A DNA stretch of 64,000 bases from Haloarcula limicola (lineage in GTDB: Archaea > Halobacteriota > Halobacteria > Halobacteriales > Haloarculaceae). Below the pieces are notes generated by a model, which worked only from the letters and a program-made list of their open reading frames with translations, was not told the origin of the DNA and did not search any database. The position numbers and the translations under genes are program-made. The stretch covers positions 1,240,001 to 1,304,000 of the forward strand of contig NZ_WRXM01000001.1 in NCBI RefSeq assembly GCF_010119205.1, in the 5' to 3' direction. How positions within the stretch are numbered: position 1 is the stretch's first letter; each line of letters begins with the position of its first letter. Shown one piece after another: positions 17,782 through 32,981 of this stretch.

Positions 17782-18558
17782 CTACGAGTGAGCGATGTTG
17801 AGTTCGAGTTCGTTCGCGGCCCCGAGCAACAGGTCGGGCAGTTCCGTCTCGAACCGCTCGCCCTTCAGTCGGTGAGAGGGGCCCGTGACGCTGAGTCCGC
17901 CGATGACGTCATCGTTCGAATCACAGATGGCGACGCCGACGGCGTGTGTCCCCTGCAGGGACTCGTTGCGGTTGAAGGCGTATCCGCGGTCGCGGATCTC
18001 GTCGAGTTCCCGCAACAGCTCGTCCGGGTCCGTTATCGTGTGCTCGGTCATCGGCTCGAAGTCCATCAGTTCGACCATTTCGAACAGCTCCGATTCCGGG
18101 AGCTCCGCGAGGATCGCTTTCCCCGCAGACGCGGCGTAGAGGGGGATTCGGCTCCCGATTCCCGGGTCGGTGTGGACCGCGTGGGTTCCGACCGACCGGG
18201 CGAGATACACCGCCTCGCCGTGTTCCTCGACGAAGAACTGCGCGCGCTCGCCCGTCTCGCTGGCGATCTCCTCGACCTTGTCGCGGACGAGTTTGTACCC
18301 GCAGTAGCTGTTCCGCGCGGTCACGCCGATGTCCAGAAAGCGGAGCCCCACCCGATAGCCGTCGTCTCGCTCGACGACGTATCCGAGGTGTTCGAGCGTC
18401 CGCAGATGGCGGTGAATCGTGCTCTTCGCGTAGTCGAGTTCGGCCGCCATCTCCGGGAGCGTCGTCCCCTCCTCCTCCTTGACGAACTGCACGACGTCGA
18501 ACAGCGTCTGGGCCGTCTTGACCGAGTCGGGCAGTTCGTCGCCGGCTTGCATTCCCAT
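17782..18558 (-). CDS. IclR family transcriptional regulator
   Basis: The 258 residues show the IclR plan. An N-terminal winged helix-turn-helix lies at about residues 10-75 (KTAQTLFDVVQFV, then YAKSTIHRHLRTLEHLGYV). The larger effector domain lies at about 85-255, with a typical ASAGKAILAELP segment near 148 and GTHAVGVAICD near 205. IclR proteins control catabolic genes in response to small organic acids. It diverges from the MFS gene, and a perfect inverted repeat beside its own TATA box is a likely operator. It is the best candidate controller for the sugar-acid cluster to its right. Confidence 0.92.
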   Translation of the reverse strand: MGMQAGDELPDSVKTAQTLFDVVQFVKEEEGTTLPEMAAELDYAKSTIHRHLRTLEHLGYVVERDDGYRVGLRFLDIGVTARNSYCGYKLVRDKVEEIASETGERAQFFVEEHGEAVYLARSVGTHAVHTDPGIGSRIPLYAASAGKAILAELPESELFEMVELMDFEPMTEHTITDPDELLRELDEIRDRGYAFNRNESLQGTHAVGVAICDSNDDVIGGLSVTGPSHRLKGERFETELPDLLLGAANELELNIAHS

Positions 18559-18579: not shown

Positions 18580-18590
18580 CAATAAAAAGT
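18580..18590 (-). promoter_or_regulatory. TATA box of the IclR gene
   Basis: On the minus strand ACTTTTTATTG lies about 22-32 bases before the ATG at 18558, implying a nearly leaderless transcript. Confidence 0.55.
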
Positions 18591-18607
18591 GTTCGACGAC
18601 TTCGAAC
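18591..18607. promoter_or_regulatory. Palindromic operator candidate GTTCGA-N5-TCGAAC
   Basis: A perfect 6+6 inverted repeat with a five-base spacer abuts the upstream side of the IclR TATA box, in the BRE region. The divergent MFS promoter is about 70 bases away. The position suits autoregulation and joint control by the IclR protein. Confidence 0.5.
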
Positions 18608-18676
18608 GGGGGCGGGCGGTCGCGGACTCGCCTCGCGCGGCGGTCGTACCGCTACCGGGCGGCCGACTGATAGTCA

Positions 18677-18685
18677 GATTTAATT
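18677..18685 (+). promoter_or_regulatory. TATA box of the MFS carrier gene
   Basis: The word gatttaatt is centred about 28 bases before the GTG at 18709. This is the main reason for choosing that start rather than the ATG far upstream. Confidence 0.5.
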
Positions 18686-18708
18686 CGCTCAGTCGAGTGG
18701 TCGGACCC

Positions 18709-19959
18709 GTGGCATCGCTCTCATCTATCGCCGGGACCGACGCGGGCGTCATCCGCGAACGCCCCTTTCAGTTGCTGTTCCTCACGAACATGCTCCCGCC
18801 GCTCGGGACCGCACTTCTCTCCCCGGTGCTGAACTCGCTCGTCGAGCCGCTCGGCGCGACGCCGGCGAACATCGGGCTGATGATGTCGGCGTTCACCGCG
18901 CCCGCCGTCGTCGTCATCCCGATCACCGGCGTCCTCGCCGACCGGTACGGACGACGACCCGTCATCCTCTTCGGACTCCTCTGGTTCGGTATCACCGGCA
19001 CGGCCATCTCGCTCGTTTCGACGTTCGAGGCCGCCCTGCTCTTGCGGTTCTGTCAGGGGTTCGGCTTCGCCGCGCTCACGCCGGTCATCATCACCAGCAT
19101 CGGCGACCTCTACTCGGGGACGAAGGAGGCGACGGCACAGGGCTTTCGCTTCACCGGGTCCGGCATCACCCAGACGGTCTTCCCGCTCACCGCCGGGCTG
19201 CTGGTCGGTCTCGCGTGGCAGTACCCGTTCCTCCTGTACGCCATCGCGTTCCCCATCGCCGCCGTCGTCTACGTCTGGTTCGAGGAGCCGATCGACTCGG
19301 ACGCCGACACCGACGACGGACGGCCGCTCAAGGCGCAGCTCGCCGACCTCTGGACGCTCGTCTCGCACAGGCGAGCGTGGACGATGGTCGTCGCCCGCGG
19401 CTCGGCCAACCTCGTGTGGTTTGGCTTCCTCACCTACAACTCCATCGTCGTCGTCGACGGCCTCGGCGGGACGCCGGCGCAGGCGGGCGTGCTCGCGGCC
19501 CTCGCCAGCACCAGTTACGCGGTCGCCGCGACGCAGGCCGGTCGCATCACCGCGCACTTCGAGCGCCGGCTGTATCCGCTCGTCGCGATGAACGTCTCGC
19601 TGGGCGCCGGTCTCGCGGTCGTCTTCCTCGCCGACGCGCTCTGGCTGGCGGTCGCCGGCGTCGTGTTCATGGGATTGGGCTTCGGCGTCGTCCTCTCGAT
19701 ATACCGGACCGTCATCACGTCGCTCGCGCCGCCGACCCTCCGCGGCGGGCTGGTGAGTCTCAGCGAGGGGAGCGGCCGGGCGGCGGCGACGGTGACGCCG
19801 ATCCTCATGGGCGCCGCCATCGCCGTCTTGAACCCGCAGTTCGGGTTCGTCTCCTCGGTCCGACTGGTCGGTATCGCGACGGCGGCGGTCGGGGCGGGCG
19901 TCGGCGTCGCCTGTCTGCTCCTCATGAGCGTCTCGCCGTCGATTCAGGTAGATGCCTAG
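18709..19959 (+). CDS. MFS transporter
   Basis: This 416-residue carrier has about twelve membrane helices in two halves. The MFS signature between helices 2 and 3 is clear (GVLADRYGRRPVILFG, near residue 75), and a long acidic loop lies at about 205-220 between the halves. The GTG at 18709 is chosen because a TATA box stands about 28 bases upstream and the sequence before it is not membrane-like. It diverges from the IclR gene and precedes the hydroxyacid dehydrogenase gene, so a sugar acid or hydroxyacid is a plausible cargo; direction and substrate are inferred only from context. Confidence 0.85.
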   Translation: MASLSSIAGTDAGVIRERPFQLLFLTNMLPPLGTALLSPVLNSLVEPLGATPANIGLMMSAFTAPAVVVIPITGVLADRYGRRPVILFGLLWFGITGTAISLVSTFEAALLLRFCQGFGFAALTPVIITSIGDLYSGTKEATAQGFRFTGSGITQTVFPLTAGLLVGLAWQYPFLLYAIAFPIAAVVYVWFEEPIDSDADTDDGRPLKAQLADLWTLVSHRRAWTMVVARGSANLVWFGFLTYNSIVVVDGLGGTPAQAGVLAALASTSYAVAATQAGRITAHFERRLYPLVAMNVSLGAGLAVVFLADALWLAVAGVVFMGLGFGVVLSIYRTVITSLAPPTLRGGLVSLSEGSGRAAATVTPILMGAAIAVLNPQFGFVSSVRLVGIATAAVGAGVGVACLLLMSVSPSIQVDA

Positions 19960-20013
19960 CGGGGCGACCGCGGGTACTTTGTCGGTCGGCTCCGACTACC
20001 TTCGACAGAACAC

Positions 20014-20979
20014 ATGCCCACCGACACACCCGACATCGCGGTCCTCGACCACGACGCACACGGGATCCCCGCCGCTGAATACGCCGACATTCTCCGGCGG
20101 CGACTCCCGGATTACACCGTCAGCCTCGCCGATACACCCTCCGAACGGCGGCGACTGCTCGAAACGGCGACCGTCGTCGCTGGGAGTAGATTGGACGGAG
20201 ACGACCTCAACGCCGCCGAGAACCTCCGCCTGTTCGCCTGTAACTCGGCCGGCGTCGAGCACCTGCCGCTCGACGCGCTCGCCGAACGGGGGGTCGCCGT
20301 GACGAACGCCTCGGGCGTCCACGGGCCGAACATCGCCGAGCACGTCCTCGGCTGGGTGCTGACGTTCGCTCGCCGACTGGACGAGGGCCGGCGTCGACAG
20401 GAACGGCGGGAGTGGCGGCGGTTCCAGTCGTTCGCCGAACTCGCCGGGAGCACCGTCACCGTCGTCGGTCTCGGGTCCATCGGCGAGGCCATCGTCCAGC
20501 GGTTCTCGGGGTTCGACGTGACGACGCTCGGCGTGCGCCACACCCCCTCGAAGGGCGGGCCGACCGACGAGGTGCTGGGCTACGGCGATCTCGACGACGC
20601 GCTGGCCCGAACGGACGTGCTCGTCCTCTCCTGTCCGCTGACCGAGACGACGGAACAGCTGATCGGCGAGACCGAACTCGGTACCCTGCCGACCGACGCC
20701 GTCCTCGTCAACGTCGCCCGCGGCGGCGTCGTCGATACGGAAGCGTTAGTCGGGGCGCTGCAGTCGAACAAGATCCACGGCGCGGCCCTGGACGTGACCG
20801 ACCCGGAACCGCTCCCGACCGACCACGAGCTCTGGGGGTTCGAGAACGTCTTCCTCACGCCGCACGTCTCGGGACACACGCCGAAGTACTGGGAGCGCCG
20901 AGCGGACATCTTAGTGGAGAATATAGAGCGAGTCGCCGAATCGGGAGCGTACGAGAAACTCCGCAATCAGGTAGCCTGA
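20014..20979 (+). CDS. D-2-hydroxyacid dehydrogenase
   Basis: This 321-residue enzyme belongs to the NAD(P)-dependent D-isomer-specific 2-hydroxyacid dehydrogenases, which interconvert D-2-hydroxyacids and 2-oxoacids. The Rossmann motif GLGSIG is at residues 152-157. The catalytic trio is present: Arg236 (NVARGGVVD), Glu265 (DPEPLP) and His284 (TPHVSG). A substrate-side loop, NSAGVEHLP, lies near 77. It follows the MFS gene by 54 bases in the same direction. In this cluster it could oxidise D-lactate, D-glycerate or glyoxylate-type products of sugar-acid cleavage; the exact substrate is unknown. Confidence 0.92.
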   Translation: MPTDTPDIAVLDHDAHGIPAAEYADILRRRLPDYTVSLADTPSERRRLLETATVVAGSRLDGDDLNAAENLRLFACNSAGVEHLPLDALAERGVAVTNASGVHGPNIAEHVLGWVLTFARRLDEGRRRQERREWRRFQSFAELAGSTVTVVGLGSIGEAIVQRFSGFDVTTLGVRHTPSKGGPTDEVLGYGDLDDALARTDVLVLSCPLTETTEQLIGETELGTLPTDAVLVNVARGGVVDTEALVGALQSNKIHGAALDVTDPEPLPTDHELWGFENVFLTPHVSGHTPKYWERRADILVENIERVAESGAYEKLRNQVA

Positions 20980-21019
20980 GCGCGGCGGGCGGCGAGCGGC
21001 GACCGCAGGGCGGCGGGTA

Positions 21020-22237
21020 TTAGAACCCGCTCGTCCCTTCGAGTCGGTGTTCCTCGACGACGTCCTCGTCCAGTTCGATTCCCAGTCCGGGCTCCTCGGG
21101 CACTTCGATGTAGCCGTCCTGGATCAGCGGCTCGTCGCGGGCGAGCATGTCGTCCCACCAGTCGACCTCCAGCGCGTGGTACTCCAGCAGGTCGAAGTTC
21201 GGCGTCGCCGCACCGAGATGGACGCAGGCCATCGTCCCGACCGGGCTACAGACGTTGTGCGGGGACATCGGCATGTAGTTCTCTTCGGCCCGGTCGGCGA
21301 CCCGCATCGTCTCGGCGAGGCCGCCGACCGTCGTCGGGTCCGGCGTGATGACGTCGACGCCGTGGTCGTAGACCAGTTCCGAGAGCTCGAACACCCGGAA
21401 GCGGTTCTCGCCGGTGGCGACCGGCGTCCTGGTGTTCTTCGTCACCTCCTTCTGGGCGTCCATGTTCTCCGGCGGCACGAGGTCTTCGAGCCACATCAGT
21501 TTGTACTCCTCCAGTTCGTGGGCCAGTCGCTTCGCGCTCTCGACGGAGTAGTCCCAGTGGCAGTCGAAGGCGAGGTCGACGTCGTAGCCGATCTCGTCGC
21601 GCACCGCCTCGACGATCTCGCGTTTCTCCTCGATGGCCGCGTTCGTCAGACGACCGTTGTACGGGTCGGGGTCGTTGTCGGCCGGCAGGTCGAGGTCGAA
21701 CTTCAGTGCGGTGAAGCCCATGTCGGTGACGCGGGCCGCCTCGGCGGCGTACGCCTCCGGCGAGTACGCCTCGGCCCCGGCGTAGGCCGTCGCGCCGTCC
21801 TCGACGGCGTAGGCCTCGCCGGCGTGGCAGTCGCAGTAGAGGCGCACCTCGTCGCGGTACTTCGAGCCGAGCAACTGGTAGACCGGGAGGCCGAGGATCT
21901 TCCCGGCGGCGTCCCACAGCGCCACCTCGATGCCCGAGGCGGCCGTGACGACCTTGCCGGTCGTCCCCCCGTGGCCGGACATCTCCTGGAAGATGTAGCG
22001 GCTGAGCCGCTCCACGTCGAGCGGGTTCTCCCCGAGCAGGAACCGCTTGGTGTACTCGACGAGTTCTGGGACGCCCCCGCCCCGGTAGGACTCGCCGATG
22101 CCGGTGACGCCGGCGTCGGTCTCGACCTTGATGAGGTTCCACTCGAAGTTGCCTTCGACCACGCAGGTCTTGATGTCGGTTATCTCTACGTCGCGGTCCG
22201 GGTCGCGGTTCGCTATCTGGTCTGAGTAATCTCTCAT
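21020..22237 (-). CDS. Enolase-superfamily sugar-acid dehydratase (MR/MLE type 1)
   Basis: This 405-residue enzyme of the mandelate racemase/muconate lactonising group resembles gluconate, xylonate and galactonate dehydratases. The metal ligands are Asp225 (FDCHWDY), Glu251 (WLEDLVPP) and Glu277 (ATGEN). His227 two residues after the first ligand and His327 (SPHNVCSP) are likely acid/base residues, as in the aldonate dehydratases. It should convert an aldonate to a 2-keto-3-deoxy acid. Its ATG at 22237 overlaps the stop of the second enolase-family gene (ATGA), so both are translated from one message. The sugar is unknown. Confidence 0.9.
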   Translation of the reverse strand: MRDYSDQIANRDPDRDVEITDIKTCVVEGNFEWNLIKVETDAGVTGIGESYRGGGVPELVEYTKRFLLGENPLDVERLSRYIFQEMSGHGGTTGKVVTAASGIEVALWDAAGKILGLPVYQLLGSKYRDEVRLYCDCHAGEAYAVEDGATAYAGAEAYSPEAYAAEAARVTDMGFTALKFDLDLPADNDPDPYNGRLTNAAIEEKREIVEAVRDEIGYDVDLAFDCHWDYSVESAKRLAHELEEYKLMWLEDLVPPENMDAQKEVTKNTRTPVATGENRFRVFELSELVYDHGVDVITPDPTTVGGLAETMRVADRAEENYMPMSPHNVCSPVGTMACVHLGAATPNFDLLEYHALEVDWWDDMLARDEPLIQDGYIEVPEEPGLGIELDEDVVEEHRLEGTSGF

Positions 22238-23343
22238 TGGGTTCTGAATTCGTCGAGCGCGTCGTCATCGAGCGGTACACCGTGGCCGGGCGTCTCCGGC
22301 AGGGGAATCATTCCGTCGTCGTCGGGGGCGAGCGGTTCGGCCACCACGTCGTCGAACACCTTCACGTCCATGTCGCGGTAGAAGTACTCGATCCAGAGGC
22401 CGTTCTCGATGGCCCCCAGGAGCGAGGCGTGGATGTTCCAGTTGTAATGGGGCGCGATGGGGATGTCGTAGGCGGCCGCGTAGTTGGCGATGCGGAGCCA
22501 CTCCGTGACGCCGCCGCAGACGGTCACGTCCGGCTGGAGGACGGTCGCCGCGCCCGTGTCGTTGAGGCGGGCGAAGTTGTGTCGCGTCCCTTCGAGTTCG
22601 CCGGTCGCGACCGGGTAGTCGATGGCGTCGTTGACCTCGGCCATCGTCTCGACCCTGTCGATCATCACCGGTTCCTCCATGAAGTACGGGTCGTGCGGTT
22701 CGAAGGCGCGACAGGCCCGGATGGCCTCGGTCGCGGAGGACCAGACGCCGTTCGCGTCGAGCAAGAGCGTCCGGTCGGGGCCGATCTCCTCGCGGACGGC
22801 GGCGACGCGCGCTTCCTCCTCGCTGACCGAGCGGCGGCCGACCTTCATCTTGACGACGTCGTGACCTTCGTCGAGATACCGGCGCATCTCCTCGCGCAGG
22901 CCCTCGTGACCCTTGTCGTCGCGGTAGTAGCCGCCGCTGGCGTAGGACGGGACCGAGTCGGCGTAGCCGCCCAGCAGTTTGTACAGCGGCTCGTCGGCGG
23001 CCTTCGCCTTCAGGTCCCAGAGCGCGATGTCGACCGTCGAGATGGCCCGCAGAAAGAGCCCCGTCCGCCCGATCTGGACGTTGCCCTCGTACATCTCCTG
23101 CCAGAGCCGCTCGGTGTCTCGCGGGTCCTCCCCGAGCAGTATCGGTTCGAGGAGGGACTCGACGGCCTCCGAGATGAGGCCGGCCCCCTCGTAGCCCAGC
23201 GAGTACCCGACGCCCTCTCGGCCGTCGGCCGTCCGGACGTGCGTTATCGCGTGGTCGCGGAAGGTGAGCGTCCGGTTCGAAAAGGAGACCGGGGACTCCA
23301 GCGGGATCTCTATCGGATACGATTCTACATCTACGATTTCCAT
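22234..23343 (-). CDS. Enolase-superfamily enzyme with KxK motif (MR/MLE type 2)
   Basis: This 369-residue protein has the mandelate-racemase-subgroup layout. Lys165 and Lys167 (VKMKVGR) form the base motif. Asp196 (LLDANG), Glu223 (FMEEPV) and Glu249 (ATGE) are the metal ligands, and His299 (APHYN) is the opposite base. A capping N-terminal domain covers residues 1-125. With bases on both faces it could racemise, epimerise or dehydrate a 2-hydroxyacid or sugar acid. It is the first gene of the leftward pair and diverges from the LarA-like gene across 93 bases. Two distinct enolase-type enzymes side by side suggest successive or stereo-alternative steps of one pathway. Confidence 0.9.
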   Translation of the reverse strand: MEIVDVESYPIEIPLESPVSFSNRTLTFRDHAITHVRTADGREGVGYSLGYEGAGLISEAVESLLEPILLGEDPRDTERLWQEMYEGNVQIGRTGLFLRAISTVDIALWDLKAKAADEPLYKLLGGYADSVPSYASGGYYRDDKGHEGLREEMRRYLDEGHDVVKMKVGRRSVSEEEARVAAVREEIGPDRTLLLDANGVWSSATEAIRACRAFEPHDPYFMEEPVMIDRVETMAEVNDAIDYPVATGELEGTRHNFARLNDTGAATVLQPDVTVCGGVTEWLRIANYAAAYDIPIAPHYNWNIHASLLGAIENGLWIEYFYRDMDVKVFDDVVAEPLAPDDDGMIPLPETPGHGVPLDDDALDEFRTQ

Positions 23344-23436
23344 AGACACAGCGCCGCGACACACGGAGTAATAGCCCGCCGTCGCGGCAATACTTACCAC
23401 CCGCACATTTGTACGTCTCGGTCGATACACGCCGGT
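23344..23436. promoter_or_regulatory. Divergent promoter region, enolase pair and LarA-type operon
   Basis: These 93 bases lie between two diverging operons and include the TATA-like word aatacttacc near 23390-23399. The shared, short region suggests joint control of both arms of the pathway. No clear palindrome like the one near the IclR gene was found. Confidence 0.35.
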
Positions 23437-24735
23437 ATGGACGTACCCGACCGCAGTGACGTCGACCACCTCATCGACCCGCAGCCGCTCCCGTCGTTCG
23501 CGCGGGTCCGCTACGAACCGCCCGTCGAGACGGTCGCCGAGCCCGCCGACGCGGCTCGGGAGGAACTCGATGCCCTCGCGCTCGACGGTCTGTCCGAGGG
23601 GGCCACCGTCGCCGTCGGCGTCGGGAGCCGCGGCATCCACGCTATCGACGACGTCACGCGCGCCGTCGTCGGGGAACTCGCCGAGCGCGGCTTCGACCCG
23701 GTGGTCGTCCCGGCGATGGGAAGCCACGGCGGGGCGACCCCCGAGGGCCAGCGGGAGGTGCTGGAGGCGCTCGGCATCACCGAGTCGGAGCTGGACGCCG
23801 CGATAGACGCCCGGATGGACACCGAGCGCGTGGCGACCGTGACCGTGGGCGAGACGGAGATGCCAGTCCACCTCTCGGTCGCCGCGCTGGAGGCCGACGC
23901 CGTCCTCGTCGTCAACCGCGTCAAGGCACACACCAACTTCACCGGGCCGGTCGAGAGCGGGCTGACGAAGATGGCCGTCGTCGGCCTGGGCAAACAGCGC
24001 GGGGCGAAGTCCTTCCACTCGACGGCCATCGCCGAGGGGTACCTGGAGACGCTGAAGCCCGCGCTCTCGGCCATCGAGGACGCCGCCCCGCTGGTCGGCG
24101 GCATCGCCCTCGTGGAGAACTTCCACGAGGAGATCGCCCGCGTCGAGGCCGTCCCGGCCGGGTCGTTCATCGAGCGCGAACCCGCGCTGCTGGAGCGGGC
24201 CTACGAGGAGATGCCGACCCTCCCTATCGACGACGTGGACCTGCTGGTCGTCGACGAACTCGGCAAGGAGATCTCGGGGGCCGGGATGGACACGAACGTC
24301 ATCGGCCGTTACCGCGTCCTCAACGCGCCCGACCCCGAGACCCCCTCGATAGATATCATCTACGCCCGCGGCCTCACCGAGGCGACGAAGGGCAACGGCA
24401 TCGGCATCGGGCTGGCCGACCTCACCCGCAAAGCGGCGCTCGACCAACTGGACCTCCGGAAGACCTACGCGAACACGTTCACGAGCGGCTCGCTCGCGAA
24501 GGGGCAACTCCCCGTCGTCGCGCCGGACGACGAGTTCGCCCTGCGGGCGGCGCTGTCGGCCCTCGGCGGCTACGACCCGGAGACGGTCCGCGTCCTCTGG
24601 ATACAGAACACGCAGGACCTTGGCGAGTTACACGTCTCCGAGGCGGTACTTCCCGACCTGCCCGACGCCGCGGAGGTCGTTGAGGACGCGACGCTCTCCT
24701 TCACCGACGGGACCGCCGCGTTCACCGAAGAGTGA
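23437..24735 (+). CDS. LarA-type nickel-pincer racemase family protein (DUF2088)
   Basis: This 432-residue protein matches the lactate racemase LarA/DUF2088 family, which uses a nickel-pincer nucleotide to invert the alpha carbon of 2-hydroxyacids. Candidate site residues are His97 (GSHGGATPEG), His165 (VKAHTNFTG), Lys178 and His194. The Lys-to-His spacing of 16 equals that of the pincer-bound Lys184 and metal-bound His200 in lactobacillar LarA. Some relatives epimerise aldonates such as gluconate at C2, which fits a cluster with aldonate dehydratases. The cofactor genes larB, larC and larE are not in the window. It leads a rightward operon with SDR, cupin and FAH genes. Confidence 0.85.
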   Translation: MDVPDRSDVDHLIDPQPLPSFARVRYEPPVETVAEPADAAREELDALALDGLSEGATVAVGVGSRGIHAIDDVTRAVVGELAERGFDPVVVPAMGSHGGATPEGQREVLEALGITESELDAAIDARMDTERVATVTVGETEMPVHLSVAALEADAVLVVNRVKAHTNFTGPVESGLTKMAVVGLGKQRGAKSFHSTAIAEGYLETLKPALSAIEDAAPLVGGIALVENFHEEIARVEAVPAGSFIEREPALLERAYEEMPTLPIDDVDLLVVDELGKEISGAGMDTNVIGRYRVLNAPDPETPSIDIIYARGLTEATKGNGIGIGLADLTRKAALDQLDLRKTYANTFTSGSLAKGQLPVVAPDDEFALRAALSALGGYDPETVRVLWIQNTQDLGELHVSEAVLPDLPDAAEVVEDATLSFTDGTAAFTEE

Positions 24736-24796
24736 CCCCGTCGCCGAGGTTGCCTCTACGGAAACATTTTCAGGCTCGACCCTGATTGGGTCTCAC

Positions 24797-25585
24797 ATGG
24801 ACCTGCAACTAGACGGGAACGCAGCGCTCGTGACAGCGTCGTCAAGCGGACTCGGCAAGGCGTCGGCGAAGGCGCTCGCCCGCGAGGGCGTGAACGTGGT
24901 CATCAACGGCCGCGACGAGGATCGACTGGCCGAGGCGAAGGAGGAAGTCGAAGAGGTCGCGACCGGCGAGGTGCTCGCCCAGTCCGGCGACCTCACCGAC
25001 CCGGACGAGACGGTCGCGCTCGTCGAGGCGACCGTCGAGGAGTTCGGCGGCCTCGACCACCTCGTGACGAGCGCTGGCGGTCCGCCGTCGGGCGCGTTCA
25101 TGGACACCGACGACGAGGACTGGGAGCACGCCTACCAACTGCTCGTGATGAGCGTCGTCCGACTGGCGCGCGAGGCCGCCCCGCACCTCCAGGAGAGCGA
25201 CCACGGGACCATCGTCAACATCACCTCCCGGAGCGTGAAGGAGGCGCTTGACAGCCTCGTGCTGTCGAACTCCGTCCGGATGAGCGTCATCGGCCTGGAG
25301 AAGACGCTCTCGAAGGAGCTGGCACCCGAGGTGCGGGCCAACGCCGTCCTCCCCGGCCCCCACGAGACCTCGCGGATTCAGGACCTCGTGAACGACGCCG
25401 TCGACCGCGGCGAGTACGACTCCTACGAGGAGGGCCTGCAGGGCTGGGCCGGCAACCCCTTAGAGCGCATCGGTGACCCGATGGAACTGGGCAACACCGT
25501 CGCGTTCCTCTCCTCTCCGATGTCCGGATTCATCAACGGCACCGCGCTGCCTATCGACGGCGGGTCGACGGGGGCGAACCTATGA
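24797..25585 (+). CDS. Atypical short-chain dehydrogenase fold protein lacking YxxxK
   Basis: This 262-residue protein has an SDR fold. The nucleotide loop is TASSSGLG (residues 13-20, first Gly replaced by Ala), the middle motif is SAGG (92-95), and NITSRS follows near 141-146. Counting 13 residues on from Ser144 gives Ser157 where the catalytic Tyr should be, and Arg161 replaces the Lys (VLSNSVRM). The N-terminus (MDLQLDGNAALVTASS) and the end (GTALPIDGGSTGANL) are ordinary for SDRs. It may use different chemistry, or bind a ligand without classic hydride transfer. Its stop overlaps the cupin start (ATGA). In related pathways an SDR oxidises the 2-keto-3-deoxy acid. Confidence 0.88.
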   Translation: MDLQLDGNAALVTASSSGLGKASAKALAREGVNVVINGRDEDRLAEAKEEVEEVATGEVLAQSGDLTDPDETVALVEATVEEFGGLDHLVTSAGGPPSGAFMDTDDEDWEHAYQLLVMSVVRLAREAAPHLQESDHGTIVNITSRSVKEALDSLVLSNSVRMSVIGLEKTLSKELAPEVRANAVLPGPHETSRIQDLVNDAVDRGEYDSYEEGLQGWAGNPLERIGDPMELGNTVAFLSSPMSGFINGTALPIDGGSTGANL

Positions 25586-25929
25586 AACCCGTCCCGTTCG
25601 ACGAGGCAGAGACCTACGAGCCCGAGGACGGGTGGCGGCGCGTCTCGATGGCCGGCAGCGACCAGTTCTCCTTCGAGTGGTTCGAGAAGCCGCCGGGCCA
25701 CAGTTCGCCGATGCACGACCACGAGAACGAGCAGGTCTGCCTCTGCCTGGAGGGCGAACTCACCGTCGCCACCGAGGACGACGAGGTCACTCTGCAGCCG
25801 AACGACTCGGTCCTGCTCGAATCGAACGAGGCCCACCGCGTCGAGAACACGGGCGACGAACTGGCGGTCGGACTGGACGTCTTCGCGCCGGGGCGCTCGT
25901 TCGACTTCTGGACGAACCGAGAGGAATGA
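25582..25929 (+). CDS. Cupin domain protein
   Basis: This 115-residue single-domain cupin has the first motif HSSPMHDHENEQVCLCLEG (near residues 36-54) with the His/Glu metal set. The second motif, near 70-90, ends in EAHRVEN with its His. Proteins of this kind can be isomerases, lyases or dioxygenases for small acids, or ligand sensors. It overlaps the SDR gene upstream and the FAH-family gene downstream by four bases on each side, so it belongs to the same translational unit. Its role in the pathway is not identifiable from sequence. Confidence 0.85.
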   Translation: MKPVPFDEAETYEPEDGWRRVSMAGSDQFSFEWFEKPPGHSSPMHDHENEQVCLCLEGELTVATEDDEVTLQPNDSVLLESNEAHRVENTGDELAVGLDVFAPGRSFDFWTNREE

Positions 25930-26747
25930 ACTACCTCGCACGCACCGCGAGCGGGCGGCCGCTGCTCGGGGACGACGAGGGATTCGTCCCGCTGAGCGCG
26001 GTCGAGTCAGACCTCGATAGCGTCCGCGAGGCGCTCCCGCGGGCCGCCGCGGGGACGCTCGGCGACGTCGCGGACGCACACGCGGAGCGGATGCCAGCCG
26101 CCGACTTCACGTTCGGGCCGCCGCTCGAAGCGTTCGGGAAGCTCTGGGGCATCGGGCTGAACTACGCCGAGCACGCCGGCGATCTAGACGAGCAGCGCCC
26201 GGACGAGCCGGCGAGCTTCATGAAGCCCTCGACGGTGCTGACCGGGCCGGGCGGGCCGATCCGCCTGCCACCGAAGTCCCAGAGCGAGCGCGTGACCGCC
26301 GAAGCCGAACTGGCCGTTGTGATGGGGAAGACCTGTCGCGGCGTCTCGGAGGCCGAGTTCGACGACGTCGTCGCCGGCTACCTCCCGGTGATCGACATGA
26401 CCGCCGAGGACGTGCTCCAGCGCAATCCGCGATTCCTCACGCGTGCGAAGAGCTACGACTCCTTCCTCGTCGTCGGCCCGGCCATCGCCGTCCCCGAGGA
26501 GCCGCTGGACCTGACCGACGTGACCGTCCAGACGGTCGTCAACGACACCGTCGAGTCCGAGAACCAGATTCGGAACATGCTGTTCCCCCCGGAGGAGATC
26601 GTCTCGTTCCACTCGGACGTGATGACGCTCGAACCGGGCGACCTGTTCAGTACGGGGACCCCCGGCGCGGCACCCATCGAACCCGGCGACGACGTGCGCG
26701 CGACCGTCGAAGGCATCGGGAGCGTCGATGCGCCCGTGACGCGATAA
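25926..26747 (+). CDS. Fumarylacetoacetate hydrolase family enzyme
   Basis: This 273-residue enzyme has the FAH C-terminal fold. The lid motif GIGLNYAEHA is at residues 75-84. The metal set is Glu126 and Glu128 (AEAELAVVMGK) with Asp157 (VIDMTAED), and Lys175 lies in AKSYDSF. A late STGTPGA loop is also present. The family hydrolyses or decarboxylates beta-diketo acids. In diketo-hydrolase sugar pathways known from haloarchaea and Sulfolobus, such an enzyme cleaves a 2,4-diketo-3-deoxy acid to pyruvate plus a hydroxyacid. The ATG overlaps the cupin stop. It is the last gene before the TRAP promoter region. Confidence 0.9.
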   Translation: MNYLARTASGRPLLGDDEGFVPLSAVESDLDSVREALPRAAAGTLGDVADAHAERMPAADFTFGPPLEAFGKLWGIGLNYAEHAGDLDEQRPDEPASFMKPSTVLTGPGGPIRLPPKSQSERVTAEAELAVVMGKTCRGVSEAEFDDVVAGYLPVIDMTAEDVLQRNPRFLTRAKSYDSFLVVGPAIAVPEEPLDLTDVTVQTVVNDTVESENQIRNMLFPPEEIVSFHSDVMTLEPGDLFSTGTPGAAPIEPGDDVRATVEGIGSVDAPVTR

Positions 26748-26932: not shown

Positions 26933-26938
26933 ATGACG

Positions 26939-28075
26939 ATGTCAGACGAGAATATGCAGCGACGCAAATTCCTGTACGGAGCGGCAACCGCTGGCGTCAT
27001 CGGCCTGGCCGGCTGCGGCGGCGACGGCGGTGACGGCGGCGACGGCGGATCGGGCGGCGACGGTGGCAGCGGCGGCGACGGCGGGTCGACCGGCACTGGC
27101 ACCAGCGACGGTGGCGACGGCGGCGACGGCGGCAGCGGCAACCTCTCGCTGCGCGTCGGGACCTCCGCCGGCGGGACCCGCGACGTGGGCCTGGCCGTCG
27201 AACGCGCGGTCAGCCAGACGAGCGACTCGCTGGACTACTCGACCATCGAGAGCCCCGGATACATCGGGACCATCTACCGGATGGCCCAGGGCCAGTTCAA
27301 CGCTGGCATCACCGACAACAACTCCCTGCTCAAGGCACAGGAGGAGCGCGGCCGGTTCTCCGAGCAGGCCGTCGAGCGCATCCCGCACTACGGGTTCTAC
27401 GCGTTCCCGTACAGCATCTACGTCATCGCCCGCGACGGCACGGGCATCGAGACGTTCTCCGACCTCGCGGGCGCGAACGTCTACCCCGCCGAGCCGGGCT
27501 ACTCGACGCGAGCGACGACGCTCGACGTCTGGTCGCAGGACCCGACGGCCGACGTCTACGACCAGATGAACATCCAGAACATGGGCGTCGACTCCGCCCC
27601 CGGCGCGATGGAAGAGGGCAACATCGACGCCTGTATCGCCTACGGGACCCCCGGCGTCCGCTACACCGGCTGGGTGACCGAGATCGCGTCCCGCCTCGAC
27701 GTCCACTACGTCGAGCCGACCGACGCGCTCAAGGAGTCCGCCGAGTCCTACGGCGGGGCCGGTGCCAGCACGACGCCGTACAGCGACTGGCAGCTGGGCA
27801 ACCTGGAGTTCGACACGGACGAGCTGTTCCACTGGGACCTCGAGGTCAACTACACGTTCAACCCGGACGCCAACAACGAGGCCGTCTACGAGCTCTGCCG
27901 CGTCGTCTACGAGAACAACGACGTGGTCAACGAGGGCGAGGCGCAGTTCAACGACTTCGCCAACGTCGAGGAGATGTACGGGTCCGCCCGCGAGAGCATC
28001 CCCGTCCACCCCGGCGCGGCCCAGTACTACAAGGACAACGACGCGTGGGACGACAGCCTCACGGTCGGTGAGTGA
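26939..28075 (+). CDS. TAXI-family TRAP transporter solute receptor (Tat lipoprotein)
   Basis: This is the binding protein of a TRAP importer of the TAXI type, which captures organic acids or amino acids outside the cell. It has a twin-arginine signal (QRRKFL, residues 7-12) and a lipobox ending at Cys26. A tether of about 45 residues made almost only of Gly, Asp and Ser follows, and then the receptor fold from about residue 70 (LSLRVGTSAGG). The ATG at 26939 gives the tidier signal; another ATG lies six bases upstream. The permease gene follows after 62 bases. TAXI relatives bind glutamate, 2-oxoglutarate or similar acids, so an organic acid is likely. Confidence 0.92.
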   Translation: MSDENMQRRKFLYGAATAGVIGLAGCGGDGGDGGDGGSGGDGGSGGDGGSTGTGTSDGGDGGDGGSGNLSLRVGTSAGGTRDVGLAVERAVSQTSDSLDYSTIESPGYIGTIYRMAQGQFNAGITDNNSLLKAQEERGRFSEQAVERIPHYGFYAFPYSIYVIARDGTGIETFSDLAGANVYPAEPGYSTRATTLDVWSQDPTADVYDQMNIQNMGVDSAPGAMEEGNIDACIAYGTPGVRYTGWVTEIASRLDVHYVEPTDALKESAESYGGAGASTTPYSDWQLGNLEFDTDELFHWDLEVNYTFNPDANNEAVYELCRVVYENNDVVNEGEAQFNDFANVEEMYGSARESIPVHPGAAQYYKDNDAWDDSLTVGE

Positions 28076-28137
28076 GCGATGCCGAGCGCGGTCTCCCCCG
28101 GTAACGGGCGCTGAGTGATACACGGATTCAATCAACA

Positions 28138-30129
28138 ATGAGCACACAAACGGAACACACTGACCACTCTTCGGGGTTAGTCCGAGGGTTGGACCTGACG
28201 GTGACGGCGGCCGCGCTCGTCTTCTGGGGCATCGTCATCTGGTGGTCCACGACTCAGACGTGGTCGACGGTGCGATACGCGACGGTGTTCGTCGGCGGTA
28301 TCATGACGGTGTACGCCCTCAACGAGACCCGCGAATCCTTAGCGGAGGGCAACTGGATCGATAGCGCGGTGTTGCTACCGTCGTCGATCGTCCTCATCAC
28401 CGCCTCCGCGTACTTCGCGGCGAACTTCGAGCAGGTGTACCTCCTCCGACAGGGGTTCGCGCTCGAACACGAGTACATGCTGGCCCGGCTCATCATCATC
28501 TCCCTGCTGTACCTCACCTGGCGGGAGTTCGGGAACCTGTTCCTCGGGCTGGTCATCGGCGTGATGATCTACGCCCTCTTCGGGGACGCCGTCCCGGGCG
28601 TCCTCGGCCACGCCGGGATGAGCGAACTGACCCTGCTGCAGGCGACGGTGACGGACCTGTACGGGTTCTACGGCTCGCTGACCCAGCTGACGGCGTCGTG
28701 GATCGCGCCGTTCCTGCTGTACGCGGGCCTGCTGTTCGCCTACGGCGCGTTCGACCTCATCCTCCGCATCGCCATCGTGGCGGCGCGGTACGTCAAGTCG
28801 GGCGTCGCACAGACCGCCGTGCTGTCCTCGGCCGTCATCGGCTCCATCAACGGCTCTTACACGGCCAACGCCGCGATGACTGGATCGTTCACCATCCCGA
28901 CGATGAAGGAGAGCGGGATGGCCGGGCACCGCGCGGCCGGCATCGAGGCCGTCGCCTCCACTTCCGGACAGGTGCTCCCGCCGGTCATGGGCGCGTCGGC
29001 GTTCGTGATGGCGTCGTACCTCGGCGTCCCGTACCTCAACATCGTCGTCGCGGGTCTCATGCCGGCGGCGATCCTCGTGGCGTCCATCGGCATCGCGGTC
29101 CACTACACCGCGATCAGCGACTCCAGCAGTCAGGAGATGGAGTTCTCGGAGTTCTTCGACGACCCGCTGTCGAACCAGGAGAAACTGTTCGAGGCGGTCC
29201 GGTTCGGTATTCCGTTCGGCCTGCTCATCTACCTCCTCGGGTTCGCGCAGTACACCGTGATGACCTCCGCGCTGTACACGGTCATCGCCATGGTGATCAC
29301 CGGGATCACGATCCCCGTGCTCCAGAGCTTCGCGACCAGTTCCGAGGAGGGTCCCGGTAGCACGCTCGTCTCGCAGCTCCGGAAGACCGTCTTCGGCTTC
29401 CGCCGCGGAGCAATCATCCTCGCGCCCATCGCCATCATCCTCGTGGTCATCAGCGGCGTCGTCAACATCTTCGGGACGACCGGCGTCCCGGCGAAGATCG
29501 CGCTACTGATGATCAACATCTCGGGCGGCGTCCTGCTGTTCGCCGTCCTGCTGGGGATGGGCGTCGCCATCCTGATGGGCGTCGGGATGCCGACGGTCGC
29601 GGCCTACGTCATCGTCGCCATCCTCATCGTGCCGACGTTCGTCTCGGACTTCGGCGTCGCCGAGATCACGGCTCACTACACCGTCTTCTACGCGGCCATC
29701 TTAGCGGGGATCACGCCGCCGGTGGCCACGGCGGCGGTGGTCGCGGCCGGCATCGCCGAGGCGAACTTCTGGAAGACCTGCGGGGCGGCCATCAAGATCG
29801 CCGCGCCGCTGTTCGTCCTCCCGATCGCGTTCGTCTACAACCCCGGTCTCGTCGCCATGAACGTCGGTCTCACCACGCTCATCGTCGGCACGCTCGTGAT
29901 GTTGGGTGCGATCACCATCATCTACGGGCTGAACTACCCGTTCCAGATGAGTCTCGGCAAGCGCTCCCTCCTCCGAGCCGGACTGGCCGTGCTGGGCGTC
30001 CTCATCATGACGTACCCCGGCAGGCTCCTGAAGATCGCCGGCATCCTGGTGTTCGCCGGCGTCTTCTTCGGTGAGAAGGTGATGACTCGCGGTCTGGAAC
30101 TGCCGTTCAACAGAGGTGCGAGCCAATGA
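28138..30129 (+). CDS. TRAP transporter permease, fused 4TM/12TM type
   Basis: This 663-residue permease has about 16-18 membrane helices. An N-terminal part (residues 15-130) corresponds to the small DctQ-like subunit, and the large DctM-like part follows, with typical segments SSAVIGSINGSYTANAAMTGS near 240 and GVGMPTVAAYV near 480. Fused permeases are usual for TAXI receptors. Transport is normally driven by a sodium gradient, which fits a halophile. The next small gene starts inside its stop codon (ATGA), so all three proteins are probably made together. Confidence 0.92.
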   Translation: MSTQTEHTDHSSGLVRGLDLTVTAAALVFWGIVIWWSTTQTWSTVRYATVFVGGIMTVYALNETRESLAEGNWIDSAVLLPSSIVLITASAYFAANFEQVYLLRQGFALEHEYMLARLIIISLLYLTWREFGNLFLGLVIGVMIYALFGDAVPGVLGHAGMSELTLLQATVTDLYGFYGSLTQLTASWIAPFLLYAGLLFAYGAFDLILRIAIVAARYVKSGVAQTAVLSSAVIGSINGSYTANAAMTGSFTIPTMKESGMAGHRAAGIEAVASTSGQVLPPVMGASAFVMASYLGVPYLNIVVAGLMPAAILVASIGIAVHYTAISDSSSQEMEFSEFFDDPLSNQEKLFEAVRFGIPFGLLIYLLGFAQYTVMTSALYTVIAMVITGITIPVLQSFATSSEEGPGSTLVSQLRKTVFGFRRGAIILAPIAIILVVISGVVNIFGTTGVPAKIALLMINISGGVLLFAVLLGMGVAILMGVGMPTVAAYVIVAILIVPTFVSDFGVAEITAHYTVFYAAILAGITPPVATAAVVAAGIAEANFWKTCGAAIKIAAPLFVLPIAFVYNPGLVAMNVGLTTLIVGTLVMLGAITIIYGLNYPFQMSLGKRSLLRAGLAVLGVLIMTYPGRLLKIAGILVFAGVFFGEKVMTRGLELPFNRGASQ

Positions 30130-30377
30130 GTTCGAACGAGGAATCCCCGGAAGCGATGGCAGAGGAATCGATGCAGAACGCCGGCGGGCTCGGGGAGATC
30201 GTCCCCGAACCGCTCATGCCGGCGTGGCGGCAGTTCGAGCGCGTCCAGTCGTTCCGCGAGCGCCACGGTGAGACGTACGTCACCGTCCTCGAAGTGCTGA
30301 CCGCCATCGCACTCGCCGGCGGCTACGCCTGGTGGGTGTACCTCTACCTGCTCGGCGGTTCGGGCGCGCCCATCTGA
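30126..30377 (+). CDS. Small membrane protein coupled to the TRAP permease
   Basis: This 83-residue protein has an acidic, Met/Glu-rich N-terminal half that is likely cytoplasmic and one membrane helix near residues 54-77 (VLEVLTAIALAGGYAWWVYLYLL), followed by a short GGSGAPI tail. Its ATG overlaps the permease stop by four bases. TRAP systems normally need only a receptor and a permease, so this looks like an accessory or stability factor. I do not recognise a named family. Confidence 0.75.
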   Translation: MSSNEESPEAMAEESMQNAGGLGEIVPEPLMPAWRQFERVQSFRERHGETYVTVLEVLTAIALAGGYAWWVYLYLLGGSGAPI

Positions 30378-30425: not shown

Positions 30426-31898
30426 TCACTGCCACGTCGCCGCGCGCTCGATATCGTGCGGGATGTGGCTGTCCTGTTCTCGCACGTCGTCTAAGTACGC
30501 CCACAGGTCGTCGGCGAACGACGGGTGAGCGCAGTTCTCGATTATCACCTCTGCCCGCTCGACCGGCGAGAGGCCGCGGACGTCCGCGACGCCCTGTTCG
30601 GTGACGAAGACGTCGACGTCGTGTTCGGTGTGGTCGACGTGGAACGTCATCGGCACGACGCGGGAGATGTCGCCGCCCTTCAGGGAGGAGGGGAGCGCGC
30701 AGACGGTGACCAGCGAGTTGCGGTTGAAGTCCGCCGACCCGCCGACGCCGTTTATCATCCGCGTCCCGCCGACGTGCGTGGAGTTGACGTTGCCGTAGAT
30801 GTCGAACTCGATGGCGCTGTTGACGCCGACGACGCCGAACTGGTCGATGAGCCCCGGATGGTTGGCGATGTCGGCCGGCCGGAGGACGATGTCCTCGGCG
30901 TAGCGCTCGACGTCGGCGAAGAGGCGCTCCTGGCCCGCCTCGGTGAGCGCCATCGACGTGGCGCTCGCGCACTTGAGTCGGCCGGCGTCGAGCATGTCGA
31001 ACAGGCCGTCCTGGATGAGCTCGCCGAAGTAGACCACCTCGCGGTCGCCGAAGTCGAGTTCCTTCAGTTCGCCCATCAGCGCGTTCCCGAGCGAGCCGAC
31101 GCCGAACTGGAGGTGGATCGCGTCGTCGAACACCGGCGACCGCTCCATCTCCCGGGCGAGGAACGACCCGAGGTTCGCCGCGATGGCGAGGTCGTCGTCG
31201 GTCGGGTCCCGGAAGGTGTACGTCGAGTCGGGGATGTCCGTCTCGACGACCCCGACCAGTTTCTCGGGGTCGAAACTGACGTGGTTCGTCCCGATCCGCT
31301 CGCCCGGCCCGGTGAGCGGTATCGGCTCTCGGTCCGGCGGCTTCCCCGGCCGGTAGATGTCGTGGAGCGCCTGCAGTTCGAGCGGTTGCGTGCGGTTCAG
31401 CTCGATCACGAGCTCGTCGGCCGCGTCGACGAACGCCGGAACCTGCCCGATGGAGGTCGAGGGGACGAACCAGTCTTCGCCGACCGCGATGGCCTCGACC
31501 ACCGCGACGTCGGGGTCGACCAAGCCGCCGTACTGCACCTCGTCGCCGATGGACGAGGCGTTGCGGTCGCCGAACGCGATCTCGCGTCGGTTGGTCGCCG
31601 TTCGGGCGGCGCTGGAGAACTGATACGAGAAGCGCCGCGCGATGGCCCCCGACTCGACGAGGTCGACGTCGATCTCCTCGCCCACGTTGCCGCTGTGGAC
31701 GACGGTGAGCGCGAGGTCGCGGTCGTCCTCGGCGAGCGCGAGCGGGACCGCCTTCGGATAGCCGACGCTCCCGAACCCGCTCGTGAGCACCGTCGCGTCG
31801 GCCGCAATGCCTGCCGCCGCCTCGGTCGCGTCGACGAGGGGGAGGTCGCCGTACAGTCGGCGTTCGACCGGCCCGTCGTCCGGCGGTTCGCGGGTCAC
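30426..31898 (-). CDS. Acetyl-CoA hydrolase/CoA-transferase family protein
   Basis: This 490-residue class I CoA-transferase moves CoA between short-chain acyl-CoAs and free acids. The catalytic glutamate is Glu364 in VNSAIEFDIYGN, followed by the Gly-rich GGTRMINGVGGSADF strand. The N-terminal half has an SGFGSVGYPKAV loop near 40-51, and the substrate-side FGVGSLGNAL is near 265. It converges with the TRAP operon and diverges from the crotonase gene. A likely role is activating an imported acid by taking CoA from acetyl- or succinyl-CoA. The donor and acceptor are not determined. Confidence 0.9.
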   Translation of the reverse strand: MTREPPDDGPVERRLYGDLPLVDATEAAAGIAADATVLTSGFGSVGYPKAVPLALAEDDRDLALTVVHSGNVGEEIDVDLVESGAIARRFSYQFSSAARTATNRREIAFGDRNASSIGDEVQYGGLVDPDVAVVEAIAVGEDWFVPSTSIGQVPAFVDAADELVIELNRTQPLELQALHDIYRPGKPPDREPIPLTGPGERIGTNHVSFDPEKLVGVVETDIPDSTYTFRDPTDDDLAIAANLGSFLAREMERSPVFDDAIHLQFGVGSLGNALMGELKELDFGDREVVYFGELIQDGLFDMLDAGRLKCASATSMALTEAGQERLFADVERYAEDIVLRPADIANHPGLIDQFGVVGVNSAIEFDIYGNVNSTHVGGTRMINGVGGSADFNRNSLVTVCALPSSLKGGDISRVVPMTFHVDHTEHDVDVFVTEQGVADVRGLSPVERAEVIIENCAHPSFADDLWAYLDDVREQDSHIPHDIERAATWQ

Positions 31899-32195
31899 GA
31901 GGACGCACCCCCGGCGGGCCGTCGAGGCGAGTCGTCCGTGCGAGCGATGCGACTGTCGCTGGTAGCGGTCCTGCCGCCACCGTCCGTGAAAGTGGGCATT
32001 GTCTGGGTACTTGACGGCGCAGCGTCGAGCGACGGACGGAGCTCTCGCTGTCGCTCGGCACCGGCCGTCGATGGTCGGTCGCTACTCGGATATTCGTATC
32101 TGAGATAATAAATCGTAGGGTACGCGTCGCCGAGGGGACGACAATCGGGACGCCCGACAACCACCTATATGTGGGAACGGACCGACGAGAGGAAC
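31899..32195. promoter_or_regulatory. Divergent region between CoA-transferase and crotonase
   Basis: About 297 bases with no gene. An AT-rich centre near 32088-32115 (gatattcgtatctgagataataaatcg) carries TATA-like words for both directions. A second TATA-like element, cacctatatg, lies near 32162-32171, about 25-35 bases before the crotonase ATG. Confidence 0.4.
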
Positions 32196-32981
32196 ATGGA
32201 GACCTACGAGGACGTCAGCTACGGCGTCACCGACGGGATCGCGACCATCACCATCGAGCGACCGGACGTCTACAACGCCTTCACGCGGAACACCGTGCTC
32301 GAACTCAACGACGCGGCGCGGACGGCCGAGGCCGACGAGGACGTCTACGCGGTCGTGCTGACGGGGGCCGGGAAGGGCTTCTGCTCGGGCGCGGACACGA
32401 CGGAGATGCCCGACTGGGACGAGCAATCGCCCGAGGAGTACGGCGCGTTCCTCTGGCTCATCCAGCAGTTCGTCTGGAACATGCGGACGATGGCGACGCC
32501 CTCCATCGCCGCCGTCAACGGCCCGGCCATCGGTGCCGGCTGTGACTTCGCGCTGGCGTGTGACCTGCGCGTCGTCGGCGAGGAGGGCGTGATGCGCGAG
32601 GGGTTCGTCAACGTCGGCCTAGTCCCCGGCGACGGCGGCGCGTGGCTCCTGCCCCGCCTCGTCGGCGAGTCGAAGGCCCGGGAGTACCTGCTCACCGGCC
32701 GGGACATCACCCCCGAGGACGCCGTCGACATCGGCCTCGCCGTCGAGCGGGCCGACGACGCGCTCTCGGCCGCGGGCGACCTCGCGGCGGAGATCAGAGA
32801 CAAGCCCGCGACGGCCGTCCAGCATACGAACCGGCTGGTCGACCCCCAGCAGAGCTTCGACGAGTACTGCCGGAAGGCCGCCGAGTACCAGTGGGACTGC
32901 GTCGTCGACGACGAGCACAAGGAGGCGGTGGCGGCGTTCAACGAGGGCCGCGAGCCGGCGTTCGATCGGTCCTACGAGTAG
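32196..32981 (+). CDS. Enoyl-CoA hydratase/isomerase (crotonase) family
   Basis: This 261-residue crotonase has the oxyanion hole built from the GKGFCSGAD loop (Ala66) and GPAIGAGCD (Gly115). In the catalytic loop the second classic hydratase Glu is not in place. The sequence is GLVPGDGGAWLLPRL (141-155), with Asp146 close to the Asp found in PaaG-type isomerases. An isomerase or hydrolase role is therefore as likely as hydration. I chose the ATG at 32196, preceded by GAGAGGA, over one 27 bases upstream. It forms a catabolic set with the CoA-transferase and acyl-CoA dehydrogenase. Confidence 0.9.
   Translation: METYEDVSYGVTDGIATITIERPDVYNAFTRNTVLELNDAARTAEADEDVYAVVLTGAGKGFCSGADTTEMPDWDEQSPEEYGAFLWLIQQFVWNMRTMATPSIAAVNGPAIGAGCDFALACDLRVVGEEGVMREGFVNVGLVPGDGGAWLLPRLVGESKAREYLLTGRDITPEDAVDIGLAVERADDALSAAGDLAAEIRDKPATAVQHTNRLVDPQQSFDEYCRKAAEYQWDCVVDDEHKEAVAAFNEGREPAFDRSYE

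Follow-up and report, generated by a model that had tools for sequence, protein, structure and literature searches.

We analysed a gene cluster in a 64,000-nt stretch of a Haloarcula limicola contig (the window; all positions are counted within it), in which a LarA-type protein of nickel-pincer-nucleotide (NPN) isomerase group 22 stands with two enolase-superfamily genes (MLE1 and MLE2), an atypical short-chain dehydrogenase/reductase (SDR), a small cupin and an FAH-family C-C hydrolase. We tentatively favour, with a little less than even confidence, a product-side role for LarA, in which it would racemise the 2-hydroxyacid released by the FAH-family hydrolase within a catabolic cluster for an imported sugar-type acid; its substrate would most likely be lactate or glycerate. 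We infer all reactions and substrates of this route, that of LarA included. If the reading holds, LarA flips the handedness of the released hydroxyacid so that enzymes taking a single mirror form can consume it, and the cluster is an archaeal acid-catabolic route in which a racemase lets one enantiospecific oxidase or kinase finish the degradation.

The LarA protein matches the group-22 model NF052515 over its full length and above its cut-off (Table 1); this group is probably the group 22 of the 25-group scheme of Desguin (2020). In Pfam it scores for DUF362 (28.6 bits, cut-off 24) and reaches 21.2 bits for Lar_N (PF09861), a family of the same clan; because this is under the gathering score of 23.3, we do not assign it to Lar_N as curated, and its membership in the LarA superfamily rests on the group-22 model, the predicted fold and the aligned residues. 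The AlphaFold2 model (pLDDT 87.3, pTM 0.85) retrieved exclusively LarA-family matches at E ≤ 0.001 in Foldseek (19 rows, E 1e-6 or better), and VIA-align gave Z 18.2–19.9 to LarA structures (3.2–5.5 Å over 289–325 residues), the next, unrelated family dropping to Z 6.6. PDB sequence searches with this LarA alone, then with a 22-sequence profile, gave zero matches, solved LarAs included.

Residues were mapped to L. plantarum LarA with a classical archaeal LarA (L169) as bridge, by motif and by an hhalign profile-profile alignment that was consistent, of low probability (3.9), and used only with the fold match. H97, H165, K178 and H194 correspond to H108, H174, K184 and H200, that is, to the two catalytic His, the covalent NPN Lys and the Ni-ligand His; the 16-residue spacing of K178 and H194 is that of K184 and H200. 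R65, H97, K163, H165, T166, K178, K186 and H194 do not vary among 114 group-22 homologues, which bears out the Lys178 and His194 that an earlier sequence-only reading of the window had put forward as pincer residues. On the modelled fold, these residues and the host's cofactor genes, LarA is very likely an NPN-dependent enzyme.

The cofactor genes on which that reading had made its case depend are present: larB (232 bits), larC (432 bits) and larE (286 bits) all score above cut-offs in the host genome, so the objection that they might be missing does not apply. Among 145 genomes of relatives, a sample less biased than the named loci described below, 57 are group-22-positive: 56 of 114 LarB-positive genomes and 1 of 31 LarB-negative ones (p 6e-7), the latter a 60%-complete genome. 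The group is above its cut-off in Haloferax volcanii and in 56 genomes of the sample. The sections of PMC8305020 at hand list this species as a possible host of nickel-pincer enzymes on account of its larBCE genes and name no enzyme there that uses the cofactor; its group-22 protein is therefore a direct candidate.

Both enolase-superfamily proteins have intact and different active sites, as had been read from the sequence. MLE1 is galactonate-dehydratase-like (K179xD181, D225xH227, E251, E277 and H327, invariant in 33 orthologues), and MLE2 is of the mandelate-racemase (MR) type (K165xK167, D196xN198, E223, E249 and H299, a KxK, DxN, H pattern invariant in 27 orthologues). An acid-sugar dehydratase with an intact site, as a diketo-hydrolase aldonate pathway requires, is thus present. 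Neither protein reaches the equivalog cut-off of a named dehydratase; in NCBIfam MLE1 comes nearest to hexonate dehydratases, and it is about 55% identical to a paralogue that occurs in most relatives. In the FAH-family protein H83, E126, E128, D157 and K175 are invariant in 43 orthologues and D86 in 42 of them (Glu in one), leaving intact the metal triad and the His-acid dyad that a hydrolase requires. Its PDB relatives include L-2,4-diketo-3-deoxyrhamnonate hydrolase (8gsr) and FAHD1, the nearest being hydrolases, isomerases or decarboxylases. A keto-deoxy-acid dehydratase of the Weimberg type is disfavoured, the match to KDArab dehydratase being weak (3.4e-4) and the hydrolase dyad intact. 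The small cupin keeps H45, H47, Q51 and H85 in 41 orthologues.

The SDR was rightly called atypical: it has S144, S157 and R161, with Ser157 and Arg161 in place of the catalytic Tyr and Lys in 43/43 orthologues, and its nearest solved chains, 2z1n and 5vps, likewise read SNxxR. Because Tyr and Lys are lost, a standard dehydrogenase step is uncertain, and the chemistry may differ from normal dehydrogenation. This SDR subfamily is near-universal in haloarchaea (strong match in 132 of 145 genomes), where the match is in most cases another paralogue with about 60% identity to the present SDR (e.g., G000:C2:886358-887128).

The route that we propose would begin with import of a sugar-type acid by the TRAP-TAXI system and/or the MFS transporter. 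From the aldonate, MLE1 and MLE2 would form a 2-keto-3-deoxy acid by dehydration, the atypical SDR would yield the 2,4-diketo acid, with the cupin perhaps aiding ring or keto-enol forms, and the FAH-family hydrolase would split this into pyruvate and a short 2-hydroxyacid. Using nickel-pincer cofactor supplied by the host LarB, LarE and LarC, and held by K178 and H194, LarA would racemise the 2-hydroxyacid through a proton-coupled hydride transfer in which H97 and H165 act as acid and base. The L form would pass to an LhgO-type FAD oxidase, and the D form to the D-isomer-type 2-hydroxyacid dehydrogenase (HADH) or to a YdiJ-type FAD/FeS flavoenzyme, whichever the genome has; LarA would let D-specific enzymes take over, or back up an L-specific oxidase. 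The sequence of dehydration, oxidation and hydrolysis that the sequence-only reading had drawn from other haloarchaea is plausible by homology and by conservation of the FAH site, but its oxidation step meets an SDR without Tyr and Lys.

Loci carrying related LarA genes were gathered by similarity to this LarA, a sampling in which the cluster is over-represented and close relatives are favoured; genes in these other loci were called by a simple composition-based caller, and some neighbours were named by eye, key ones being checked with family models. LarA-SDR-cupin-FAH recurs, with rearranged orders, in about ten haloarchaeal genera (Haloarcula, Halorubrum, Haloferax, Halogranum, Natronorubrum, Natronococcus, Halobiforma, Halobacterium and an uncultured Halobacteriales genome); in most cases MLE1/MLE2 are divergent and TAXI/TRAP genes lie downstream. 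Halobonum and Halarchaeum keep parts of the cluster in another order, and Haloferax marinum carries LarA, MLE, SDR, cupin, FAH and LhgO. The LarA-SDR-cupin-FAH order persists over several genera at 66–92% LarA identity (the upper value from Haloarcula amylovorans), with insertions and losses around it, and the arrangement is far beyond chance. A second partial copy of the cluster in one genome (G014; L096 and G014:C2:9059-14765), with a second SDR of equal score and partial FAH and MLE1 genes, is either a duplication or an assembly artefact.

A tree of 65 group-22 sequences contains at least three clades; the three described here all adjoin enzymes for small 2-hydroxyacids. Clade A (support 95), with Asn at residue 167, includes the present cluster and its relatives. 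FAH and cupin genes are each found in 29 of its 56 fetched loci and SDR genes in 30; 21 loci have no MLE, SDR or FAH nearby, and 11 of these have a D-2-hydroxyacid dehydrogenase instead. Many Haloarcula clade-A copies stand beside a YdiJ-type D-2-hydroxyacid dehydrogenase, in neighbourhoods that also hold a gene read by eye as haloarchaeal malate synthase and unconfirmed by any Pfam match; in Natronococcus (L130) the YdiJ-type gene occurs together with LarA-SDR-cupin-FAH. The sister clades B (support 99) and C (support 100), with 55 loci between them, both have Asp167. In clade B a DUF1537 kinase and PdxA lie near LarA in 13–14 loci. Clade C has glycerate 2-kinase near LarA in 18 loci and an FAH-family hydrolase gene in 7, along with Gfo/Idh and aldo-keto reductase genes; nine loci also carry LutB/LutC-type lactate dehydrogenase genes.

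Glycosidase genes, such as alpha-L-fucosidase (L052) and arabinofuranosidase (L042), surround some of the clade-C loci. At four clade-C loci (L045, L042, L076 and L052) LarA adjoins the FAH-family hydrolase, three of the loci also having glycerate 2-kinase, and these LarAs are candidate glycerate or lactate racemases in the use of plant or algal sugars. In a Sulfobacillus metagenome-assembled genome (L148), a bacterial group-22 LarA, whose match falls into two segments, lies near a DUF1537 kinase, PdxA and another FAH-family gene.

The sequence-only reading had left open whether LarA epimerises an aldonate or a product hydroxyacid. We favour the product side because LarA's neighbours outside the cluster are often D-2-hydroxyacid dehydrogenase or, in the sister clades, FAH with glycerate 2-kinase, or DUF1537 kinase with PdxA. 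More generally, it is conceivable, if doubtful as yet, that group-22 LarA is a haloarchaeal stereochemical adaptor, each clade being matched to the short 2-hydroxyacid of its neighbouring pathway (the FAH product, with oxidases, in clade A; tetronates in clade B; glycerate in clade C) and residue 167 being part of the switch. From the neighbours particular to each clade, three short lists of assayable substrates can be drawn up for this uncharacterised group of nickel enzymes.

Several observations weigh against the product-side role. Published LarA signatures at the loop positions F175/F176 are F,F for lactate, Y,F for 2-hydroxyglutarate and E,V for gluconate, and T166-N167, the loop after H165, fits none of them; the malate class, which varies at both positions, may still apply. 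Lactate specificity by loop signature was rejected, F,F being absent. No conserved residue could be placed as the equivalent of LarA Lys298 within the aligned region 278–293, which is largely of low confidence in the model (R291 is conserved, R293 is not). None of the enzymes assayed in the main texts consulted, Table 1 of PMC7583248 included, belongs to group 22. The Ser-Tyr-Lys set expected of a diketo-pathway SDR is incomplete here, without Tyr and Lys. An LhgO orthologue was found in only 7 clade-A loci, where many of the fetched sequences end too soon for its absence to be scored, and the nearest named relatives of both flavoenzymes act on 2-hydroxyglutarate, not lactate. The genes for a CoA-transferase, an enoyl-CoA hydratase-family protein (ECH) and an acyl-CoA dehydrogenase (ACAD2) have no place in the proposed route. 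Finally, SDR-cupin-FAH without LarA is common in haloarchaea.

LarA is an accessory: group-22 LarA stands beside these dehydratases in only 6 of the 57 positive genomes (G000, G014, G026, G070, G088 and G104), and FAH modules are mostly without this LarA (FAH orthologues in 26 of 145 genomes, next to it in six; SDR-FAH-MLE2 without it in L164 and L165), so the core acid route can run without it. One genome (G131) has FAH-cupin-SDR-MLE with both LhgO-type and YdiJ-type oxidases but lacks a group-22 gene, and neither LarB nor LarE scores above cut-off there; each enantiomer thus has its own oxidase in the absence of LarA. Only 7 of the 145 genomes hold an LhgO copy with at least 79% identity, and every one of them also has FAH (p 3e-6). 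The FAD/FeS neighbour was dropped as a lactate dehydrogenase, since NCBIfam ranks the YdiJ D-2-hydroxyglutarate dehydrogenase nearest, at a score far below cut-off. Because the loop fits no signature and the flavoenzymes' relatives are 2-hydroxyglutarate enzymes, lactate, glycerate and 2-hydroxyglutarate cannot be distinguished here as LarA substrate. The joint pathway of the sequence-only reading thus stands in part: its genes travel together in many haloarchaeal genera, but LarA is not tied to the dehydratases. LarA without dehydratases in nearly all relatives, which that reading took as fatal, is what we see for the whole family and not for the cluster-bearing sub-lineage.

The main rival to the product-side role, which we hold rather unlikely, makes LarA an aldonate C2-epimerase that turns an unusable epimer into one that the dehydratases accept, as GntE enzymes interconvert gluconate and mannonate. 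It would account for MLE1 or MLE2 accompanying LarA in 26 of the 56 clade-A loci, three of them without SDR or FAH; the four-carbon acid-sugar kinases beside clade B suggest that group 22 may handle polyhydroxy acids, and the polar loop residues (T166, N/D167) are in keeping with a polar substrate. The step would, however, be partly redundant, because an aldonate loses its C2 stereocentre on dehydration and, in principle, an MR-type KxK/His site such as that of MLE2 can take the proton from either face. Also against it are the 11 clade-A loci with YdiJ and none of MLE, SDR or FAH, and six whose fetched stretch contains FAH but no MLE, a contig end truncating at least one such stretch. Counts of dehydratase-only against FAH-only LarA loci, as a measure of substrate-side against product-side roles, were too small, and the sample is biased towards close relatives. 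One of the three MLE loci without SDR or FAH (L108, in G070) has a dehydratase pair 74–82% identical to MLE1/MLE2, LarA and diverged TAXI/TRAP genes, and also lacks the cupin; ECH, ACAD2, a CaiB-type CoA-transferase and two MaoC-type-hydratase-like genes are present there.

That LarA is a 2-hydroxyglutarate racemase in a C5-dicarboxylate route, or epimerises pentarates such as arabinarate, seems improbable. LhgO does score above the L-2-hydroxyglutarate oxidase model cut-off, genes like YdiJ, succinate-glutarate or mesaconate CoA-transferase and glutaryl-CoA dehydrogenase recur nearby, and D-arabinarate is a further substrate of a known 2-hydroxyglutarate racemase of the LarA family, which epimerises it (PMC11770544). 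Yet MLE1 is closest to hexonate dehydratases, the Y,F signature is absent, the YdiJ and CoA-transferase scores are far under equivalog cut-offs, and FAH would have to release a dicarboxylate, for which nothing speaks. Quite improbable, in our estimate, is a loose linkage, in which LarA would be a mobile accessory recruited to the operon and acting on an unrelated hydroxyacid. Most group-22 copies do lie elsewhere, and both the rarity of dehydratase linkage among the positive relatives and the many FAH modules without LarA would follow from it; the gene order kept across genera at down to 66% LarA identity argues otherwise.

The genes of the cluster are collected in Table 1. All genes named in the sequence-only reading are confirmed as open frames; the 21020–26747 that it delimited leaves much of the cluster (17782–35808, from gene calls and family models within the window) outside. 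MLE1 and MLE2 form a minus-strand pair (23343 to 21020) with a 4-base overlap, and LarA starts 93 bases from MLE2 on the opposite strand. Of the four genes that had been described as an overlapping operon, SDR, cupin and FAH do overlap, by 4 bases at each junction, but LarA is separated from the SDR by a 61-base gap.

Table 1. Genes of the cluster, with positions in the window and the match or call behind each name.
Gene product	Position	Strand	Basis
IclR-family regulator	17782..18558	-	Pfam IclR_C 125 bits
MFS transporter	18589..19959	+	Pfam MFS_1 158 bits
D-isomer-type 2-hydroxyacid dehydrogenase (HADH)	20014..20979	+	Pfam 2-Hacid_dh_C 178 bits
MLE1, enolase-superfamily acid-sugar dehydratase (galactonate-dehydratase-like)	21020..22237	-	NCBIfam PRK14017 217 bits, below 311 cut-off
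MLE2, enolase-superfamily enzyme, mandelate-racemase active-site type	22234..23343	-	NCBIfam AraD_Arch 238 bits; L-talarate/galactarate dehydratase 233 bits; both below cut-off
LarA-type NPN isomerase, group 22	23437..24735	+	NCBIfam NF052515 484.9 bits, cut-off 400
Atypical SDR without catalytic Tyr and Lys	24797..25585	+	Pfam adh_short_C2 155 bits
Small cupin	25582..25929	+	Pfam Cupin_2 63 bits
FAH-family C-C hydrolase	25926..26747	+	Pfam FAA_hydrolase 175 bits
TAXI-family TRAP solute-binding lipoprotein	26933..28075	+	TIGR02122 85.6 bits, cut-off 84.35
Fused TRAP permease	28138..30129	+	TIGR02123 367 bits, cut-off 321
Small membrane protein, 83 aa, overlaps TRAP permease	30126..30377	+	gene call
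Class-I CoA-transferase, ScpC-like	30426..31898	-	NF053853 508 bits, cut-off 500
Enoyl-CoA hydratase-family protein (ECH)	32169..32981	+	Pfam ECH_1 156 bits
Acyl-CoA dehydrogenase (ACAD2)	32997..34136	-	Pfam Acyl-CoA_dh_1 129 bits
Second cupin	34189..34539	-	Pfam Cupin_2 47.8 bits
LhgO-type FAD oxidase (L-2-hydroxyglutarate oxidase family)	34603..35808	-	NF008726 425.6 bits, cut-off 299

An IclR orthologue is similarly placed in Haloarcula, Halorubrum and Haloferax clusters, and the MFS transporter is kept in most Halorubrum loci. HADH is present in 14 of the 56 clade-A loci; four genomic loci that lack LarA have it close to MLE1 homologues. The small membrane protein has no Pfam match and may be an accessory subunit of the TRAP system; in 8 loci a small protein resembling it (81 aa in L117) is encoded within 7 kb of LarA. 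The ScpC-like CoA-transferase occurs in 13 of the 56 clade-A loci; an 89% orthologue of ECH immediately adjoins LarA in L039 and L064, and an ACAD2 gene accompanies LarA-ECH in L064 and in other loci. Elsewhere in the window, on the minus strand, a hydantoinase B gene adjoins a hydantoinase A/oxoprolinase-type gene (10341–14017; Pfam 670 and 307 bits), and a carotenoid-oxygenase-type protein (37345–38775; Pfam RPE65, 366 bits) is possibly retinal-forming.

Among known systems, the cluster shares dehydratase, SDR and hydrolase steps with the diketo routes (FucC-FucF-FucG; LRA5-LRA6; L-rhamnose in H. volcanii). The expected products, pyruvate and a 2-hydroxyacid, are also alike: the L-fuconate and L-rhamnonate routes yield pyruvate and L-lactate (PMC11199699), and H. 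volcanii converts rhamnose to pyruvate and lactate, with growth on rhamnose impaired by deletion of candidate lactate dehydrogenase genes, according to the sections of PMC8305020 at hand. It differs in having two dehydratases, an SDR without Tyr/Lys, no sugar dehydrogenase or lactonase found among its genes, and in addition the cupin, LarA, the LhgO-type oxidase, CoA-enzyme genes and acid transporters. Because the SDR lacks the Tyr and Lys of the Ser-Tyr-Lys set, we say that the cluster, as read from its sequence, works like a diketo-hydrolase aldonate pathway and do not call it one.

With the LarA superfamily (L. plantarum LarA 5huq; malate racemase Mar2 6d6z/7s91; T. maritima homologue 4nar) group-22 LarA shares the predicted fold and equivalently placed anchor Lys, Ni-ligand His and two catalytic His, in a genome with larB, larC and larE; it differs in its identity of about 11–16% over the structure, its own T166-N167 loop signature, and a loop, running from the second catalytic His to the Lys, that is 3 residues longer. 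Searching the literature for LarA in haloarchaea gave no result. Enzymes of the D-threonate/D-erythronate pathway (DUF1537 kinase, PdxA2) adjoin clade B LarA and the Sulfobacillus copy, whereas the genes of that pathway are absent from the present window. NPN isomerase group 22 itself splits here into at least three clades, with differing neighbours and Asn or Asp at residue 167.

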